Assembly: GCA_947474065.1 (NCBI GenBank)
Contig: CANJHD010000001.1
Location: 1-64,000 of the forward strand
Reading direction: 5' to 3'
Source: Planctomycetaceae bacterium
GTDB lineage: Bacteria > Planctomycetota > Phycisphaerae > Phycisphaerales > SM1A02
DNA length: 64,000 nucleotides
Shown here piece by piece: positions 26,691-61,582 of the stretch. Every line of letters begins with the position of its first letter. Within the stretch, counting starts at the first letter, position 1. The position numbers and the translations under genes were made by a program. The notes below the pieces were generated by a model. The model saw nothing but the letters and a program-made list of their open reading frames with translations, did no database searches and had not been told where the DNA came from.

Positions 26691-27086
26691 TCAGACTTCT
26701 TCGTCTTCTTCTTCGTCTTCTTCTTCGTCTTCTTCTTCCTCTTCTTCTTCCTCTTCTTCTTCCTCTTCTTCTTCCTCTTCTTCGTCCTCGTCTTCGTCTT
26801 CTTCTTCCTCTTCTTCGTCCTCTTCTTCGTCCTCTTCTTCGTCCTCTTCTTCTTCCTCTTCTTCCTCTTCTTCTTCGTCTTCGTCCTCGTCTTCGTCCTC
26901 GTCTTCGTCCTCGTCTTCGTCGTCGTCGTCGTCATCATCGTCGTCGTCATCATCGTCGTCCTCGTCCTCCTCCTCGTCGTCGTCGGAAGCGAGGATGGTG
27001 GCGGGCGACAATGCGCCGTAGAAGGACGCGAGCGTGTCCTCGAGGAAAGGATCGGCCATGGTGGACGTGGAGCTGATGAATGTCAT
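26691..27086 (-). CDS. Small protein with an uninterrupted poly-Asp/Glu C-terminal tail
   Basis: MTFISSTSTMADPFLEDTLASFYGALSPATILAS followed by about 96 consecutive D/E residues, then V-stop. Confidence 0.6.
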   Translation of the reverse strand: MTFISSTSTMADPFLEDTLASFYGALSPATILASDDDEEEDEDDDDDDDDDDDDDDEDEDEDEDEDEDEDEEEEEEEEEEEDEEEDEEEDEEEEEEDEDEDEEEEEEEEEEEEEEEEEEDEEEDEEEDEEV

Positions 27087-27196
27087 GGGTATCTCGTCAG
27101 GAATTCGTGCGGTCACGGGGCACAACGGGCGGAAGTGTAGCGATCTGCAAATACCCCGGGAAACGGAGGGTGGGGGAATTCGCCGGCTGCCTCGCT

Positions 27197-35911: not shown

Positions 35912-35980
35912 GGGGATTGTGGTGCAAGTGAGTTGAGTCGTCCACCGCCACCTCCGTTGCTCGCCAACGCAACACACATG

Positions 35981-36043
35981 CATGCGCGCTCTGGAACCCG
36001 CGCCCCTGGCCGCACGCGCCGGAGAGGACTGGGCCGCGCTCAG
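35981..36043 (+). repeat. Interspersed hairpin repeat, copy 1 (right arm lost or degenerate)
   Basis: catgcgcgctctggaacccgcgcccCTGGCCGCACGCGCCGGAGAGGACTGGGCCGCGCTCAG; matches copies at 50464 and 54875. Confidence 0.8.
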
Positions 36044-47617: not shown

Positions 47618-50446
47618 ATGCACACGCCCGCCCGTAATGCCGCCGATGTCCGCCGCGCCTTCCTCGCGTTCTTCCAGGAGAAGGCTGGCCACACCGTTGT
47701 GCCATCGAGCCCGGCGATCCCGTTCGAGGATCCCACCCTGCTCTTCACCAACGCAGGCATGAACCAATTCAAGGATGTGTTCCTTGGTCAAGGAACGCGC
47801 AACTACACGCGCGCCGTGGACACCCAGAAGTGCATCCGCGCCGGCGGCAAGCACAACGACCTTGAGGATGTGGGTCGCGATACATACCACCACACATTCT
47901 TTGAGATGCTCGGCAACTGGTCGTTCGGCGACTACTTCAAAGTGGAGTCGATTGGCTGGGCGATGGAATTGCTCACCAAGGTGTATGGACTCGATCCGAA
48001 TCGCCTCTATGCAACGTGGTGCGCTGGCGATCCGAAGCAAGCGGTCGCGCCTGATGATGAAAGCCGAAATCTATGGCTGAAATACTTGCCAGCTGACCAT
48101 GTGATCCCTGGCAGCATGAAAGACAACTTCTGGGAGATGGGCGAGACGGGACCGTGCGGCCCATGCACTGAGATTCATTACGACCGCATCGGCGGGCGCA
48201 ATGCCGCAAGTCTTGTCAACAGTGGCGATCCCGATGTACTTGAAGTTTGGAATCTGGTGTTCATTCAGTTCAATCGCGAGCCGGGTGGAAAGTTGGTTCC
48301 GCTGCCAGCGCGCCATGTCGATACTGGCATGGGACTCGAACGACTCGTGAGCGTGCTGCAGGACAAGCGCAGCAACTACGACACTGATTTATTCACACCG
48401 ATCTTTGATCTCACCGCAAAGGTCACCGGCGCACGCGCCTATGCAGGCACGCTCGAAGGCGCGGCAGATATCGCTTACCGGGTCATTGCAGACCATGTTC
48501 GTTGCATTTCCATTGCTGTAGCCGATGGCGCGGCACCCGGAAGCGAAGGACGAAATTATGTTCTGCGCCGCATCTTGCGTCGCGCAATTCGTGCCGGTCA
48601 TCAACATTTGGGCGCGCGCGAGCCGTTCATGTTCAAGCTTGTGCCAGCAGTGATCGAGACACTTGGCGAAACATTCCCGACATTGGTGCAACAGGCGACG
48701 AAGGTTGTGCACACCATTCGCGAAGAGGAAATTGCCTTCGGCAAGACACTCGAGCGCGGCATTGCGCTGTTCGACGAAGCCGCCAAGCGCGCGGGTGCCG
48801 CAAAGTGCATCTCTGCTCGGGACGCATTCAGTCTGCATGACACGTTCGGATTTCCTGTTGACCTCACGCAAGTGATGGCCGAAGAACGCGGCTTCACAGT
48901 TGATGTGGCCGGCTACGAAAAGTTAATGGAAACCGCACGGGAGCGAAGTCGCGAGGGCGGCAGCAAGGCTGAGGGAATGCGCATGCCGCCACCTGATGCC
49001 CTAGAAAAACTGCGGACAGCCCTGCACATTTCTGGCACTGACGATTCCGGTCGCAATGAGCCAAAACCAACCAACACCGACATCGCTGCTATCTGGGATG
49101 GCCATGCGCTGATCAACAAGGCGATCGAAGAACAACGCGTCGCGTTGATCACGCGCAAGACTCCGTTCTATGCGGAAGGCGGCGGACAAGTTGGCGACGC
49201 TGGCTTCTTTGAGGTTTCATCCAATGCTGGAAGAACCCACCGCTTTAAAGTAGAGGACACCCAACGCTCTGGTGAATTCGTGATGCACCTTGGCCGCATC
49301 GAGCACGGGACGGTCTCGGTTGGTGAGCATGCAACACTCACGGTTGAGCGCGGGCGCCGCGAGCGCATTGCCGCCAATCACACGGGGACGCATCTCATGA
49401 ATCATGCGCTGCGCGAAGTGCTTGGCGAAGATGTCGAGCAGCGCGGATCACTTGTATCTGATGATCGGCTGCGCTTCGATTTCACGCACTCCAAAGCGAT
49501 GAGTGCTGACGAATTGGCGCGTGTCGAAATGTTGGTGAATGCGGCGATCGCGCGCACCATGTTGGTGGATGCTGTGGTAGTTCCGCTTGAACTAGCCAAG
49601 GGAATTCACGGAGTGCGCGCGGTGTTCGGCGAACGCTATCCAGACCCGGTGCGAGTGGTCTCCGTGGGTGCCAAGGTAGCGGACATGCTTGCCGACCCAA
49701 CCAATCCGAAGTGGCGGCGATGCTCCGTTGAATTCTGCGGCGGCACGCACACGCGTAATTCAGAAGAGGTTCAGCATTTCGCCATCCTGAATGAAGGAGC
49801 ATCAAGTGCTGGCGTACGAAGAATCTTCGCGGTCACTGGTACCGCGGCACATGCTGCAGAAGCAACGGCGACTAACATTGAGCAGCGCCTTGCAGCGGCG
49901 CGCAAGTTGACCGGCGAAGAACTGACCGAAGAAGTGACGGCAATCGCTGGAGCGCTCGCGGAACTTCCAGTCTCCACCGTGTTCCGCCACCGCATGGAAC
50001 CGGCTGTTGCGGAACTACGCGAACGGGCGAAGGAATGGCGCAAGGCACAAGAAGGCGCAAATCGCGATGTCGTTGTGAGTCAGGCTCGCGCGATCGCTGA
50101 CGAAATGACTACTGGCGCAATGATTGTGGCGAGCATCAGCGGTGCTGATCCTGCAGCACTGCTGTCAGCACTCAGTGCTGTGCGCGCCAAGCGACCAGAG
50201 AGCGCGATCCTCCTCATGAGCGCCGACGATGTCGAAGGCAAAGTGGCTATCGCAGCGGACGTCCCAAAGTCGATCCAGGACAAGGGCCTCAAAGCCGGAG
50301 ACTGGGTGCGCGCAGCTGCGGAAGCATGCGGCGGCAAAGGCGGTGGACGGCCTGACTTCGCGCAAGCGGGTGGCAAAGAGCCAGCGCGCCTGCCGGAAGC
50401 ATTGCGCGCCGCAAAGGCGTTTGCCAGCGCACGCATTGGTGAATGA
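47618..50446 (+). CDS. alaS: Alanyl-tRNA synthetase
   Basis: MHTPARNAADVRRAFLAFFQEKAGHTVVPSSPAIPFEDPTLLFTNAGMNQFKDVFLG; HTGTHLMNHALREVLG; CGGTHTRNSEEV; GGKGGGRPDFAQAGG. Confidence 0.98.
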   Translation: MHTPARNAADVRRAFLAFFQEKAGHTVVPSSPAIPFEDPTLLFTNAGMNQFKDVFLGQGTRNYTRAVDTQKCIRAGGKHNDLEDVGRDTYHHTFFEMLGNWSFGDYFKVESIGWAMELLTKVYGLDPNRLYATWCAGDPKQAVAPDDESRNLWLKYLPADHVIPGSMKDNFWEMGETGPCGPCTEIHYDRIGGRNAASLVNSGDPDVLEVWNLVFIQFNREPGGKLVPLPARHVDTGMGLERLVSVLQDKRSNYDTDLFTPIFDLTAKVTGARAYAGTLEGAADIAYRVIADHVRCISIAVADGAAPGSEGRNYVLRRILRRAIRAGHQHLGAREPFMFKLVPAVIETLGETFPTLVQQATKVVHTIREEEIAFGKTLERGIALFDEAAKRAGAAKCISARDAFSLHDTFGFPVDLTQVMAEERGFTVDVAGYEKLMETARERSREGGSKAEGMRMPPPDALEKLRTALHISGTDDSGRNEPKPTNTDIAAIWDGHALINKAIEEQRVALITRKTPFYAEGGGQVGDAGFFEVSSNAGRTHRFKVEDTQRSGEFVMHLGRIEHGTVSVGEHATLTVERGRRERIAANHTGTHLMNHALREVLGEDVEQRGSLVSDDRLRFDFTHSKAMSADELARVEMLVNAAIARTMLVDAVVVPLELAKGIHGVRAVFGERYPDPVRVVSVGAKVADMLADPTNPKWRRCSVEFCGGTHTRNSEEVQHFAILNEGASSAGVRRIFAVTGTAAHAAEATATNIEQRLAAARKLTGEELTEEVTAIAGALAELPVSTVFRHRMEPAVAELRERAKEWRKAQEGANRDVVVSQARAIADEMTTGAMIVASISGADPAALLSALSAVRAKRPESAILLMSADDVEGKVAIAADVPKSIQDKGLKAGDWVRAAAEACGGKGGGRPDFAQAGGKEPARLPEALRAAKAFASARIGE

Positions 50447-50463
50447 AGCAGACGCAAGACTCC

Positions 50464-50574
50464 CGCATGCGCTGCTTGGAACCCGCTCACCTGGCCGCAC
50501 TCGCCGGAGAGGACAAAGCCGCGCTCAGCGGCTGTCCTCGTAAGGCGATTGCGGGCCAGTAAGAAGGCGTGATC
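50464..50574 (+). repeat. Interspersed hairpin repeat, copy 2 (full length)
   Basis: CTGGCC-GCACTCGCC / GGCGATTGCGGGCCAG outer stem; GAGGAC/GTCCTC; AGCCGC-gctca-GCGGCT inner stem. Core hairpin 50491-50559. Confidence 0.85.
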
Positions 50575-50609: not shown

Positions 50610-52601
50610 ATGTCGAACGACTCATCTATCCAGTCCGTCCAATCCGAGGACCGCATCTTCCCCCCGCCAACGGACTTCGCCGCGCGCATGGGAACCGTGC
50701 ATGTCCCAGACATGGAGGCGTACCGCGTCATGCACGAACGGTCGATCCGTGATCCGGAGGGATTCTGGGGCGAGGTTGCCGCCGATTTCCATTGGTACAA
50801 GCCGTGGAGCAAGGTGCTCGAATGGAATCTGCCGGACGCCAAGTGGTTTGTCGGTGGTACTACCAATGCGTGCTTCAATTCTGTAGACCGACAGGTAGAG
50901 AATGGATACGGTCATGAATTGGCGATCCTTTGGGAGGGTGAGCCAGTTGCAGGACACGGTCCAGAAATTCGCCGCATCACCTACAGCGAATTGCGTGACG
51001 ATGTTGCCCGCTGCGCGTCCGCACTCGAGTCGCTTGGTGTCAAGAAGGGCGATGTGGTCACCCTGTACATGGGCATGGTTCCGGAACTTGCAATTGCTGT
51101 ACTTGCCTGCGCCCGCATCGGTGCGCCGCACAGCGTGATCTTTGGTGGATTCGCGGCACAAGCGATCGTCGACCGCGTGCATGATGCTGGGAGCGCCGTG
51201 ATCGTGACATGTGATGGCGCATGGCGACGCGGTTCCGTGGTGCCACTCAAGGCAAATGTTGATGCGGCATGTGAGCAACTTCCAGGCGTGCGCAAGGTGC
51301 TCGTACTCAAGCGAACCAACAACGAAGTTGCCATGCATGCCGGCCGCGATGTCTGGTGGCACGATGTAGTTCCCGCACAGCCAAATACACGCGCATGCGA
51401 GCCCGTCGACAGCGAACATCCGCTCTTTCTTCTTTACACATCAGGAAGTACTGGCAAGCCCAAGGGCATCTTGCACACCACTGGTGGATACATGGTGTTC
51501 ACCGCAGCCACTGCGCGCTGGACCTTCAACTTGGTGCCCGAGCAGAAGCAGATGTATTTCTGCACGGCGGACATCGGCTGGATCACCGGGCACAGTTACA
51601 TCGTCTATGGCATGTTGCCCAACCGGGTGCCAACGCTCATGTATGAAGGGGCGCCAAACTTCCCGGCAGAGGATCGATTCTGGGCGATCATTGCTCGCCA
51701 CAACGTGACGCATTTCTATACAGCGCCGACCGCCATCCGCAGCTTCATGCGTTGGGGCGATATGCATCCCGCAAAGCACGACCTTTCGAGCCTGCGCGTC
51801 TTGGGAACCGTCGGCGAACCGATCAATCCGGAAGCGTGGATGTGGTACCACCAGATGATCGGTGGAAGTCGCTGCCCGATCGTTGACACGATGTGGCAGA
51901 CAGAGACTGGCGGCCACATCATCACCCCTCTTCCTGGTGCTACCCCGACCACGCCTGGAAGTTGCACGATGCCGATGTTCGGAATCGATGCTGCCGTGGT
52001 TGATGATGCTGGCAATGAGCAGCCTGCGAATACTGGCGGATTGCTCGTCATTCGCAAGCCATGGCCGGGCATGTTGCGCGGCGTGAATGGTGATCGGCAG
52101 CGATTTATTGAAACGTATTGGAGCCGAGTGCCCGGTATGTATCTCGCCGGCGACAGCGCGCGTCGCGATGCGCGCGGCTACTTCTGGATCATGGGCCGCA
52201 TTGATGATGTACTGAATGTCAGCGGCCACCGTCTCGGAACGGCCGAAGTTGAAAGTTCACTCGTGGGGAGCAAGTTGGTTGTGGAAGCAGCGGTCGTTGG
52301 CATGCCGCATGAGATAAAGGGCACAGGAATAACCGCATTCTGCGTACTGCATCCCGATCATGAGAATGACGCCAGCGACGCCATGCGCAAGCGGCTGATG
52401 GAATATGTTTCGAAGGACATCGGCCCGATTGCGCGCCCAGATGTGATTCGATTCACGACAGCCCTTCCAAAGACGCGAAGCGGAAAGATCATGCGCCGCC
52501 TGCTCCGCGATGTAGCTGCCGGTAAAGAAATCACGCAAGACACCACAACGCTTGATGATCTCGGCGTCTTGGCAAAGTTGCGTGCAAGCGACGGAGAATG
52601 A
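50610..52601 (+). CDS. acsA: Acetyl-CoA synthetase
   Basis: LFLLYTSGSTGKPKGILHTTGGYMV; DIGWITGHSYIVYGMLPNRV; DTMWQTETGGHIITPLPG; PKTRSGKIMRRLLRDVAAGKE. Confidence 0.97.
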   Translation: MSNDSSIQSVQSEDRIFPPPTDFAARMGTVHVPDMEAYRVMHERSIRDPEGFWGEVAADFHWYKPWSKVLEWNLPDAKWFVGGTTNACFNSVDRQVENGYGHELAILWEGEPVAGHGPEIRRITYSELRDDVARCASALESLGVKKGDVVTLYMGMVPELAIAVLACARIGAPHSVIFGGFAAQAIVDRVHDAGSAVIVTCDGAWRRGSVVPLKANVDAACEQLPGVRKVLVLKRTNNEVAMHAGRDVWWHDVVPAQPNTRACEPVDSEHPLFLLYTSGSTGKPKGILHTTGGYMVFTAATARWTFNLVPEQKQMYFCTADIGWITGHSYIVYGMLPNRVPTLMYEGAPNFPAEDRFWAIIARHNVTHFYTAPTAIRSFMRWGDMHPAKHDLSSLRVLGTVGEPINPEAWMWYHQMIGGSRCPIVDTMWQTETGGHIITPLPGATPTTPGSCTMPMFGIDAAVVDDAGNEQPANTGGLLVIRKPWPGMLRGVNGDRQRFIETYWSRVPGMYLAGDSARRDARGYFWIMGRIDDVLNVSGHRLGTAEVESSLVGSKLVVEAAVVGMPHEIKGTGITAFCVLHPDHENDASDAMRKRLMEYVSKDIGPIARPDVIRFTTALPKTRSGKIMRRLLRDVAAGKEITQDTTTLDDLGVLAKLRASDGE

Positions 52602-52796: not shown

Positions 52797-54827
52797 ATGA
52801 TGAACAGAACCATCTGTACTGCGATTGGCTGCCTGCTTTCCGCATCCGTCAGCGCATTCGGCGATGCGACCTTCTCATTTACCAACCAATGGAGCGGCGG
52901 TGGCCAAGCCGCTTTCCGCATCACCAATAGTTCCACTCAGGCTTTACAGGGGTGGACGCTTGAATTTGATTGGAACGCGGACATTGGAAATCTGTGGAAC
53001 GGCGTGATTCAGAGCCATGTAGGCAACCATTATGTGGTTGCTCCTGCTGCATATAACGCCGCACTCCCCACTGGCGGCATCATTGACATCGGTTGCGTAG
53101 CTAGCTTCGCAACCGCGGGTTTGCTGCCAACATCATTGGTGTTTAGTGGCGGCGATAGTGGCGGTGGTGGCGGCGGCGGTGGCGGTGGCGGCGGTGGCGG
53201 TCCCGTCCCAACTATCAGCATTGCCGACGCTTCCTTGACCATTGCAACCACAAGCGGCAATTCACCCGCGAGCGGGTTCCTTTCAACGGTTGGAAACCAG
53301 ATTGTTGATTCCAATGGAAGCCCAGTGCGCATCTCGGGCGTGAACTGGTTCGGATTCGAAACAGCCAATAAGGTGTTCCACGGTTTATGGACGCGCGGCT
53401 ACAAGTCGATGCTCGACCAAGTGAAGCAACTTGGATTCAACACCCTTCGCATTCCATTCTCGAACGAGGCACTCCGGGCGGGCGCAACCACCAACAGCAT
53501 CAACTATGCGCAAAACCCTGATCTACAAGGACTGACACCGCTGCAATGCATGGACAAAGTGATTGAGTACTGCGGCAGCATTGGCTTGCGCGTGATCCTT
53601 GATCGACACTCGGCAAAGGCGGACAACTACCTGAGCGAGGACGTGTGGTTCGTTGCAGGCGACAGTTACTACACAGAGCAGCGCTGGATTTCTGATTGGG
53701 TCATGTTGGCGCAGCACTATGCAGGAAATCCAACCGTCATCGGTGCTGACTTGTTCAATGAGCCAAAGCGAAGTGCAACATGGGGAACAAGTTCGCCACT
53801 CACAGACTGGAACAAGGCAGCTGAACGATGCGGCAACGCGGTGCTTGCAGCGAACTCATCGTGGCTGATTATTGTTGAGGGCGTTGAGCGCTACAACAAT
53901 CAAACCACATGGTGGGGCGGAAATTTGAAGGGCGTCGCCACTGATCCCGTTCTATTGAGCGCCAACAACAAACTCGTCTATTCCATGCACGAATACCCAA
54001 AGAGCGTCTACGCGCAAACATGGTTTAGCGACCCAACCTATCCAAACAACATGGATGATGTCTGGAACGTGCATTGGGGCTACATCTTTAAGAACCAGAC
54101 CGCACCGCTCCTTCTTGGTGAATTTGGAAGCAAGCTAGAGACCACAAGCGACGCGCAATGGCTTGACAAGTTGACCGACTACATCGATGGTGACTTCAAC
54201 CTCGATGGCACTCGCGATTTGCCTGCTGGTCAACTCGGAATGAGCTGGACTTACTGGAGCCTGAATCCGAACAGTGGTGACACTGGCGGAATTCTGAAAG
54301 ATGACTGGACCACTGTGGATACGGCCAAGATGGCCTATATCCAAGCAAGCCAGGCACCACTGATTGGCTCCGGAGCTGCTGCCTCACAGCGAATTGATTT
54401 CCCCATCACTCTTTCGGTGGCTCCAACCAGCGCCGTCAGTGTGACCTGGGGTACCGCCAACGGAACCGCACTTGCGGGCACCAATTACCTATCGGCATCA
54501 GGCGTTCTCACCATCCCTGCTGGGCAGCTTCAAGGTCAAGTGTCGGTAGTGGTTCCTGCGCAGGCAGCGAGTGGCACAAAGCAATTCACTGTGCAACTCT
54601 CTGCACCGGTGGGTGCCACACTGGCGGATTCAATTGCCACGGGCACCTTGCGCACCGCATGCGCATCGGACCTCGATGGCAATGGAATCGTTGACGGTGC
54701 CGACTTGGGTCAACTGCTCGGCGCATGGGGTCCATGCTCCGGCTGCAACACCGACCTCGACGGTGACGGCGCAACAACTGGCGCAGACCTCGGATTGCTT
54801 CTCGGCGCATGGGGGCAATGCCCCTGA
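52797..54827 (+). CDS. Secreted GH5-like cellulase with CBM2-like domain, poly-Gly linker, Calx-beta-like domain and GC-type dockerin-like tail
   Basis: FSFTNQWSGGGQAAFRITNSSTQALQGWTLEFDW (CBM2-like); SGVNWFGFETANKVFHGLW, LGFNTLRIPFSNE, VIGADLFNEPKRSATWG (GH5); DLDGNGIVDGADLGQLLGAWG...DLDGDGATTGADLGLLLGAWG. Confidence 0.88.
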   Translation: MMNRTICTAIGCLLSASVSAFGDATFSFTNQWSGGGQAAFRITNSSTQALQGWTLEFDWNADIGNLWNGVIQSHVGNHYVVAPAAYNAALPTGGIIDIGCVASFATAGLLPTSLVFSGGDSGGGGGGGGGGGGGGPVPTISIADASLTIATTSGNSPASGFLSTVGNQIVDSNGSPVRISGVNWFGFETANKVFHGLWTRGYKSMLDQVKQLGFNTLRIPFSNEALRAGATTNSINYAQNPDLQGLTPLQCMDKVIEYCGSIGLRVILDRHSAKADNYLSEDVWFVAGDSYYTEQRWISDWVMLAQHYAGNPTVIGADLFNEPKRSATWGTSSPLTDWNKAAERCGNAVLAANSSWLIIVEGVERYNNQTTWWGGNLKGVATDPVLLSANNKLVYSMHEYPKSVYAQTWFSDPTYPNNMDDVWNVHWGYIFKNQTAPLLLGEFGSKLETTSDAQWLDKLTDYIDGDFNLDGTRDLPAGQLGMSWTYWSLNPNSGDTGGILKDDWTTVDTAKMAYIQASQAPLIGSGAAASQRIDFPITLSVAPTSAVSVTWGTANGTALAGTNYLSASGVLTIPAGQLQGQVSVVVPAQAASGTKQFTVQLSAPVGATLADSIATGTLRTACASDLDGNGIVDGADLGQLLGAWGPCSGCNTDLDGDGATTGADLGLLLGAWGQCP

Positions 54828-54874: not shown

Positions 54875-54960
54875 CCTGGCCGCACTCGCCGGAGAGGACT
54901 GGGCCGCGCTCAGCGGCCGTCCTCGTAAGGCGATTGCGAGCCAGTACGCAGGCGTGATGC
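54875..54960 (+). repeat. Interspersed hairpin repeat, copy 3 (left flank absent)
   Basis: CTGGCCGCACTCGCCGGAGAGGACTGGGCCGCGCTCAGCGGCCGTCCTCGTAAGGCGATTGCGAGCCAG (54876-54944) plus a right flank shared with copy 2. Confidence 0.85.
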
Positions 54961-55025: not shown

Positions 55026-55916
55026 TTACTTGCCAATCCACCACTCGCGCTCCGGCGCAAGATCGCACCAGCGCGTCATATTCCGCAGCGCATCGACTTG
55101 CACCAACTCGACGCCGCCATCGATCGTCCCGATGACTACTTCGTCGCCATGTCGCGCACTGACTGATCCAAAGCTCAACGAGTCATTCGGGTCGTATTCA
55201 GTCGCCCAGCGAGCCGCTGGCGTATTCAGCCACGGTGCATCGACGCGAAAGTAACCCTCGTTTATCACACCATCTGTCGTAGCGCCCGTGCGCGCGGAAG
55301 CAAACACAATGGTCTGCTGCGGCCGCTTCGCCGCGGATAGCCGGGTTACACAGTATTTCGCAAACGGATTGTCGATGCCATTGGGCAGAACCAGTTCGCT
55401 CGGAAAGCGAGCGTCATCTCCGCCCACAAATGCGCTGTTCATCCCAAAGCTCGGGTAGAGCGATGCAAAGTAGTAGTACTTGCTCCGATCGCCAGCCTGC
55501 AACTTAGCGAGCGTCTCCGCATTTGCGCCAACATAGAGGCGACGAAAGTCATCATCAAGCCATGGTGCAAGCCGCCAAGGGAATCGCTTCGAGATCTCAA
55601 TGTCGCCCCCGTATGCGTCGGTCGGAATGGCATTTCCGTTCTCGTCGCGAGCGATGTAACCCGCCTTGTAGCCCGGCAACACGAATCCATTCTGATCAGC
55701 CGCGTAGGAAATCCAACCAGTCATCACTCCGCGCAATGCCGATACCTCGGTCATCCGACCCGCAGCCCGACGGGCTCCGAGCGCTACCGGGACGATAATG
55801 GCCACAAGGACGCCGATAATGGCCAGAACGACCAACAGTTCCACCAGCGTGAAGCCACACAATCGCGGTGTTCGAGCCGTCTGGGGCGAACTAGTCGTCC
55901 CGCTCACGCGTTTCAT
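55026..55916 (-). CDS. Prepilin-type N-terminal cleavage/methylation domain protein (planctomycete pseudopilin type)
   Basis: CGFTLVELLVVLAIIGVLVAIIVPVALGARRAA; C-terminal SARHGDEVVIGTIDGGVELV. Confidence 0.82.
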   Translation of the reverse strand: MKRVSGTTSSPQTARTPRLCGFTLVELLVVLAIIGVLVAIIVPVALGARRAAGRMTEVSALRGVMTGWISYAADQNGFVLPGYKAGYIARDENGNAIPTDAYGGDIEISKRFPWRLAPWLDDDFRRLYVGANAETLAKLQAGDRSKYYYFASLYPSFGMNSAFVGGDDARFPSELVLPNGIDNPFAKYCVTRLSAAKRPQQTIVFASARTGATTDGVINEGYFRVDAPWLNTPAARWATEYDPNDSLSFGSVSARHGDEVVIGTIDGGVELVQVDALRNMTRWCDLAPEREWWIGK

Positions 55917-61181: not shown

Positions 61182-61531
61182 GGGGCCGTACCGGCATCGA
61201 CCGGACAGGCAACGCACAGTGTGGCGCGTCGTGGAGCATGCCGGCCACGTTAAAAAGCATGCAAATTCACAACTGCCAACAACACGCAGTACGCTCTCGC
61301 AGCCTAATTAGGCTGTGCAGTGAGTCCCCCCACGCCTGAATAAGGGGGCCGCTGTCAAAAATCAGGCTGGTTCCAATGGGCTGACATGCCTCGGCGGAAC
61401 GAGACTTCGCATGTCTTGGTTCGCACACCCCGTTGCGGGGGTCTGTGCGGTCGACAATCAATCCGCAAACACACTCGTAGAGGCATTGTGCGGACTGTTT
61501 CGGCACAGGGGTTCGACTCCCCTCGGCTCCA
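61182..61531 (+). ncRNA. ssrA: Transfer-messenger RNA (tmRNA), tag peptide ANNTQYALAA
   Basis: 5' GGGGCCGTACCGGCATCGACCGG; 3' GGGTTCGACTCCCCTCGGCTCCA; acceptor pairing GGGGCCG/CGGCTCC; tag gcc aac aac acg cag tac gct ctc gca gcc taa at 61275-61307. Confidence 0.95.
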
Positions 61532-61582
61532 TTTGATTGTTTGGTCATCGGTCTTCATCTGACCACTGACCATGTTTAGACC

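Follow-up and report, generated by a model that had tools for sequence, protein, structure and literature searches.

Tandem hairpins, a folded core and, at many sites, an end of RAYT type make up a modular, MITE/BIME-like repeat family in a genus of uncultured freshwater Phycisphaerales

The window, by which we mean the whole stretch of 64,000 nt analyzed from a Planctomycetaceae bacterium, carries two full copies and one truncated copy of a 69-nt hairpin, hereafter H, each with related sequence on one or both sides:

35967-36005, + strand: 5' leader of the truncated H (ACGCAACACACATGCATGCGC..CTGGAACCCGC); the same leader precedes H at other sites in the genome.
36006-36043, + strand: truncated H, 5' half only, flanked by a phosphoglucomutase-family gene and a convergent NUDIX gene.
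50452-50490, + strand: 5' leader of the H at 50491; 82% identical to the copy at 35967 over 77 nt that include the start of H.
50491-50559, + strand: hairpin module H, full copy, 69 nt, with alaS (ending at 50446) on the 5' side and an acetyl-CoA synthetase gene (starting at 50610) on the 3' side; R1 E-value 7e-18.
50560-50573, + strand: start of the 3' tail of the H at 50491 (TAAGAAGGCGTGAT), the tail being the linker that separates tandem H copies elsewhere.
54876-54944, + strand: hairpin module H, full copy, 69 nt, with a GH5 cellulase gene (ending at 54827) on the 5' side and a convergent gene (55026-55844, minus strand) on the 3' side; R1 E-value 3e-18.
54945-54958, + strand: start of the 3' tail of the H at 54876, the second full copy (TACGCAGGCGTGAT).

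Among the other features of the window, the GH5 gene has at its 3' end a 45-nt segment in duplicate (54696-54824, + strand), which encodes, by inspection, dockerin-like repeats, and a tmRNA gene lies at 61182-61534 (+ strand; RF00023, 133 bits). A possible ORF of 141 aa at 26691-27116 (minus strand), consisting mostly of Asp/Glu runs that produce a 9/12-nt periodic DNA repeat, has no Pfam match and may not be a real gene.

The two full copies of H were found exactly where a preliminary description of this DNA had placed them, and the change from A-T to G-C that it reported at one inner-stem pair is present between them. The 88-nt repeat surrounding each of them is 91% identical, and the E-value of one copy against the other (1.8e-23) excludes a chance likeness. 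Folding of the copy at 50491 gives a z score of -5.0 as RNA and of -4.6 as DNA, with no shuffled sequence folding as well. The third, partial copy, originally set at 35981-36043, is genuine, but less of it is hairpin than had been thought: the 5' half of H occupies 36006-36043 and is preceded by the related leader from 35967. The distance from the upstream stop codons had been put at 20-70 nt; the measured starts of H lie 44, 48 and 94 nt downstream of them.

H recurs well beyond the window. The host MAG (G000; 2.58 Mb in 133 contigs) has about 30 copies, some of them clustered head-to-tail with a period of 98-99 nt and many at contig ends, as expected of repeats in short-read assemblies. Searches of related genomes recovered about 15-45 copies in each of six sister species (G002, G003 and G008-G011), a diverged form in G005 and weak matches only in the other genomes of the genus. 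A covariance model of H gave no hit in the 44 other genera of the family sampled, under stricter filters with which weak matches can be lost. When 85,462 genomes were scanned with a loose pattern, those with multiple copies among the matches listed were freshwater planctomycete MAGs from several lakes, some labelled Phycisphaerales; the single matches listed from unrelated phyla resemble chance. No match was found in 50,697 phage and 72,556 plasmid records. As far as sampled, H thus appears, by sequence, confined to one genus. At gathering scores, Rfam yielded nothing of relevance in the window, and there was no match over the element in six element loci at E-values up to 10; for repeats of this sort in this clade, only general work on REP, MITE and BOX sequences was found in the literature. 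The view of H as an undescribed family of interspersed hairpins is upheld.

Alignment of the flanks revealed that the repeat does not stop at the hairpin, which is one module of a larger element. The arrangement T - (H) - C - H(-H)n is shared by many copies, in constant order and orientation; here, C is a conserved, folded core of about 160-190 nt and T is an end module, AAATAGGTGCCGTTCACC[CA]CTGTCCC. Matches to C number 12 in the host, 34 in G002, 22 in G010, 17 in G009, 14 in G005, 10 in G011 and 5 in G008. Tandem copies of H are separated by a linker of about 29 nt, by inspection an imperfect palindrome, which is occasionally doubled to give periods of 125-130 nt; the sequence following H is TA[CA]GAAGGCG or similar, and that preceding it is variable. 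T is found on the 5' side of 23 of the 64 arrays with enough upstream sequence, at a distance that peaks at 62-69 nt and is mostly about 67 nt, on the 3' side of none of 52 arrays, and in 7 of 600 random background windows. Its copies number 14-45 in just those seven genomes that have the main H type, and at most one in each of the other seven. Two ends of the kind that a MITE has are present in short T-T pairs, and the composites with H and C carry T at the 5' end only. Since T stands at about one third of the arrays and never at their 3' end, no classical two-ended mobilization was seen in these species. Arrays devoid of T may be truncated, or C-H may be independent; the copies in the window are, to judge from their sequence, reduced forms of the element with neither T nor C.

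Elements with a core like C also occur in other contexts. In G004, C is located between other terminal repeats, with 49-nt arms that are 86% complementary, and the locus L298:1390-2126 (G004:C4) has long inverted ends of the AAATCCG..GGCACCA type around a C-like core. A near-perfect palindromic MITE of the AAATCCG..GGCACCA family is found in a spacer of G012 (L353; G012:C184), adjoining the gene that borders the 54876 site in the window. C-like elements with a different, long-hairpin 3' module were seen in G006 (L301, L304 and L307), in G046, of another genus (L300 and L306), and in G012 (L148); these hairpins have the motif AGCGAGTT ... CTGTCTGAGCGA in common. The C-like elements of G006, G046 and G012 may represent an older and wider family of structured spacer elements in this Phycisphaerales family.

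In the host genome, T flanks the ORF of a 220-aa Y1 transposase as exact inverted repeats, in the spacer between leuS and a folC-like gene (L138:5154-5988; gene names by inspection); the transposase is encoded at L138:5178-5840 on the minus strand. The same T-RAYT-T layout is present in the sister species G002 and G011, the proteins being 93-94% identical; a transposase gene of this type was not found in G003, G008, G009 and G010, whose MAGs are 67-86% complete. The protein has, by inspection, an HUH motif (GNHFHL) and a tyrosine region (YIERNPV). It scores above the Pfam cut-off for Y1_Tnp and below that of its sole NCBIfam match, NF047646 (REP_Tyr_transpos; 54.3 bits against a cut-off of 80), and is therefore a divergent relative. 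Among the 15 RAYT-like loci examined across the genus, only one is without inverted ends, and several have ends of a similar AAAT-N-GGTGCC form; T is also found as singles and as short inverted pairs that form short palindromic MITEs. The search for a Y1 (RAYT) transposase suggested at the outset was thus rewarded, with a gene flanked by the very sequence that forms the 5' end of many copies of the element. The clue first offered for such a link, a GGAG before the inner stem of H, found no support. The tag of REP sequences is an unpaired GTAG outside the hairpin; the GGAG of H lies in its internal loop and stem, its GGA is often GAA, and the connection to RAYT runs through T instead. A second RAYT-like gene of the host (L139:5290-6057) has different inverted ends (AAATTGTGTCCGGGGTATCCCTGCACCTATTTA), and its ortholog in G008 has ends of the same type. 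As a rule, RAYT transposase genes are long-lived and present in a single copy; what benefit they bring and how they act are matters of debate.

Comparison of orthologous sites, at the level of sequence, has shown an empty site and changes in copy number between sister species. The spacer between alaS and the acetyl-CoA synthetase gene is 44 nt long and empty in G010 and G011, contains one H in the host and three in G008; the spacers have diverged, such that the junction of the empty site is not fixable to the base and no target duplication is definable. At the 54876 site, five species carry the element beside the convergent gene in differing combinations of modules, and G005 has the same genes with no element. 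The convergent leuS/folC-like spacer is occupied by T-RAYT-T in the host (L138) and by a C-like element in G006 (L304), so that the same spacers recur as landing sites. Moreover, C is 98-99% identical between species in which alaS is 92-95% identical, and about 96% identical between these and the host, where alaS is at about 83%; relative to G005, C is at 72%, like alaS. That C is more conserved than alaS suggests that it spread recently, or came under strong constraint, once G005 had split off.

We consider it somewhat more probable than not that H repeats as the 3' module of a mobile element that is modular, non-coding and of the MITE/BIME type, T - ~67 nt - (H) - C - H(-H)n, with T corresponding to the terminal repeat at a RAYT-like (TIRYT) HUH/Y1 transposase locus. 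This is based on the family itself, its fixed polarity, the T-RAYT-T locus, the T MITEs, the covariation of H and C (see below), the empty site in two sister species and the changes in copy number, all of them properties of sequence. C would be the folded core of the element, about 190 nt long, and the 69-nt hairpin with its ~29-nt linker the unit that multiplies in tandem. The transposase would recognize T in folded, single-stranded form, and perhaps hairpins of H or C as well, and would move or copy elements in trans into spacers; arrays of H may then grow by slippage or unequal recombination. Of the mechanisms, we infer RAYT-driven mobilization as the best supported. Possibly, the element is a passenger, structured, polar and non-coding, picked up by a RAYT-type transposase, with the folded H arrays at the 3' side replacing the second terminal repeat as a one-ended or rolling-circle-like signal for processing; the element would then be an asymmetric REPtron/TIRtron derivative that grows by reiteration of a hairpin, a bolder proposal that we regard as unlikely.

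Alternatively, C and H could form an independent mobile or selfish element with a separate mover of its own, the link to T resulting from hitch-hiking or from nested insertion into common intergenic spacers, a scenario that we hold to be possible, if only tentatively. It would account for G005, where H and C are present and T is absent, for G004, where C lies inside a different pair of terminal repeats and no match to Y1_Tnp was found, and for the differences in the 3' module among G004, G006, G012 and G046; insertion of one repeat into another is likewise described for BOX, RUP and SPRITE (PMC3049150). However, random nesting would not produce the sharp peak in the spacing of T at 62-69 nt or the fixed polarity, and no other transposase sharing the boundaries of C or H was found among the RAYT-type genes.

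A functional role of H and C as RNA elements was also considered. They would act in 3'-end protection, termination or regulation, be kept by the host and spread by duplication, with the covariation reflecting selection on RNA folding. The structures themselves find support in covariation. Across 32 distinct sequences of H, 95.4% of the cells pair, double-sided changes affect 8 of the 26 pairs against a maximum of 4 in slid controls, and the covariation score was not attained by any shuffle; three of the eight pairs (columns 22-48, 25-45 and 28-44) vary inside the main clade when the divergent G005 sequences are excluded. The idea that the compensatory change seen in the window reflects a folded structure is therefore borne out in a larger alignment. 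The internal loop of H (GGA or GAA opposite GTAA or GCAA) is conserved, as are the bulges; that such specific loops and bulges have persisted would speak for a degree of selection on shape. For C, a fold with a long stem and two arms shows double-sided changes in 13 of 47 pairs against a maximum of 4 when slid, a result that partly favors itself because the fold was predicted from the same alignment. Covariation, however, is blind to the difference between RNA and folded single-stranded DNA, and the arms of a palindrome can also covary through template-switch correction of quasi-palindromes, with no need for selection on RNA.

The high conservation of C relative to alaS would fit such a role, and so would the location of many elements. 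None of the 62 distinct loci overlaps a confident gene (a home-made gene caller was used and the counts are approximate), and 30 of them lie between convergent genes. The remainder comprise 12 divergent spacers, 9 co-directional with the element and 11 in which both neighbors are opposite to it, so that the upstream gene is co-oriented with the element at 39 of the 62 loci and opposite to it at 23. The placement of H after genes of the same strand, as first described, is thus true of the window and not of the family as a whole, and a 3'-UTR location is not the rule. Nor is a preference for 3' ends clearly shown, since 8 of the 23 window spacers longer than 80 nt are likewise convergent (8 are co-directional and 7 divergent). 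In addition, no T-run follows the hairpin, which is therefore not a standard intrinsic terminator, and orthologous spacers can be without the element. Taken together, we find an RNA function quite unlikely as the explanation of the family. Of the two possibilities raised initially, a REP-like/MITE sequence or a 3'-UTR RNA element, the mobile kind is upheld by the repetition of H and by the RAYT-like gene with T, and the RNA kind, as a rule, is not.

Large imperfect palindromes in tandem at near-constant spacing recall attC-like integron recombination sites or CRISPR-like arrays, but the spacers are themselves repeats, neither cassettes nor unique sequences, and copies are dispersed singly through the genome, which leaves this reading with hardly any credibility; the ends of H are CTGGCC and GGCCAG, and no GTTRRRY or RYYYAAC core sites were seen in the copies read. 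Equally far-fetched is the origin of H in a conserved protein gene read in the LAALAGEDxAALSG frame, which is open through H in the window copies but is not conserved, as H forms of 68 and 70 nt shift it (and with it LAALAG), changes such as GCA-CTC to GCA-GGC and CGT to CAT alter residues, and no locus among the 62 falls under a confident gene call.

Among the closest known systems are those that Di Nocera and colleagues described as TIRtrons or TIRYTs, in which RAYT-like Y1 transposases have terminal inverted repeats, together with families of TIR repeats (PMC3733652). As there, inverted copies of T stand on both sides of a RAYT-like gene, and T makes up a family of moderate abundance, found as single copies and as inverted dimers; the arrangement of an HUH/Y1 gene between inverted repeats was found for T only (in the host, G002 and G011). 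A difference is that T here additionally provides the 5' end to a larger composite, which is non-coding and includes a folded core and tandem hairpins of 69 nt; no description of such T-core-hairpin composites was found in the consulted sections of PMC3733652. With REP, BIME and REPIN sequences (PMC3116915, PMC3733652 and PMC8266576), the family shares an intergenic location, palindromic structure, high copy number, clustering and a tie to a RAYT-type HUH transposase, and T pairs resemble REPINs. H is, like REPs, intergenic and of high copy number (about 30 in the genome), but at 69 nt it exceeds the 20-50 nt of a REP palindrome, its flanks have no conserved GTAG or CGTC as the unpaired tag, its copies run head-to-tail rather than in alternating orientation, and the composite is polar. 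The BOX elements of Streptococcus (boxA-boxBn-boxC; PMC3049150) are also modular, with a structured unit whose copy number differs from one intergenic site to another; in BOX this unit is the middle one, whereas tandem H lies at one end and the other end matches that of a known transposase locus, the comparison being one of architecture. Finally, the BrickBuilt MITE of Porphyromonas gingivalis contains a tandem minisatellite, of strain-variable copy number, but has IS5-type ends and a 23-nt repeat, in contrast to the HUH/Y1-type ends and the covarying 69-nt hairpin of the H element (PMC4596501). The family described here is modular and MITE/BIME-like, combining tandem hairpins and a folded core with, at many sites, an end of RAYT type; the variant is new, the kind of genome parasite is known.

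To our knowledge, RAYT transposases have so far been linked to short REPs, REPINs or TIRs. Here, a RAYT locus shares its end sequence with the 5' end of a folded composite of far greater size, and this composite has spread to at least seven species in one genus of uncultured freshwater Phycisphaerales. The family also has a practical bearing on the study of these bacteria, as it breaks the short-read assemblies of their MAGs, with many copies at contig ends. Because sites differ between sister species in the presence or absence of the element and in the number of hairpins, its movement should be testable in natural populations.
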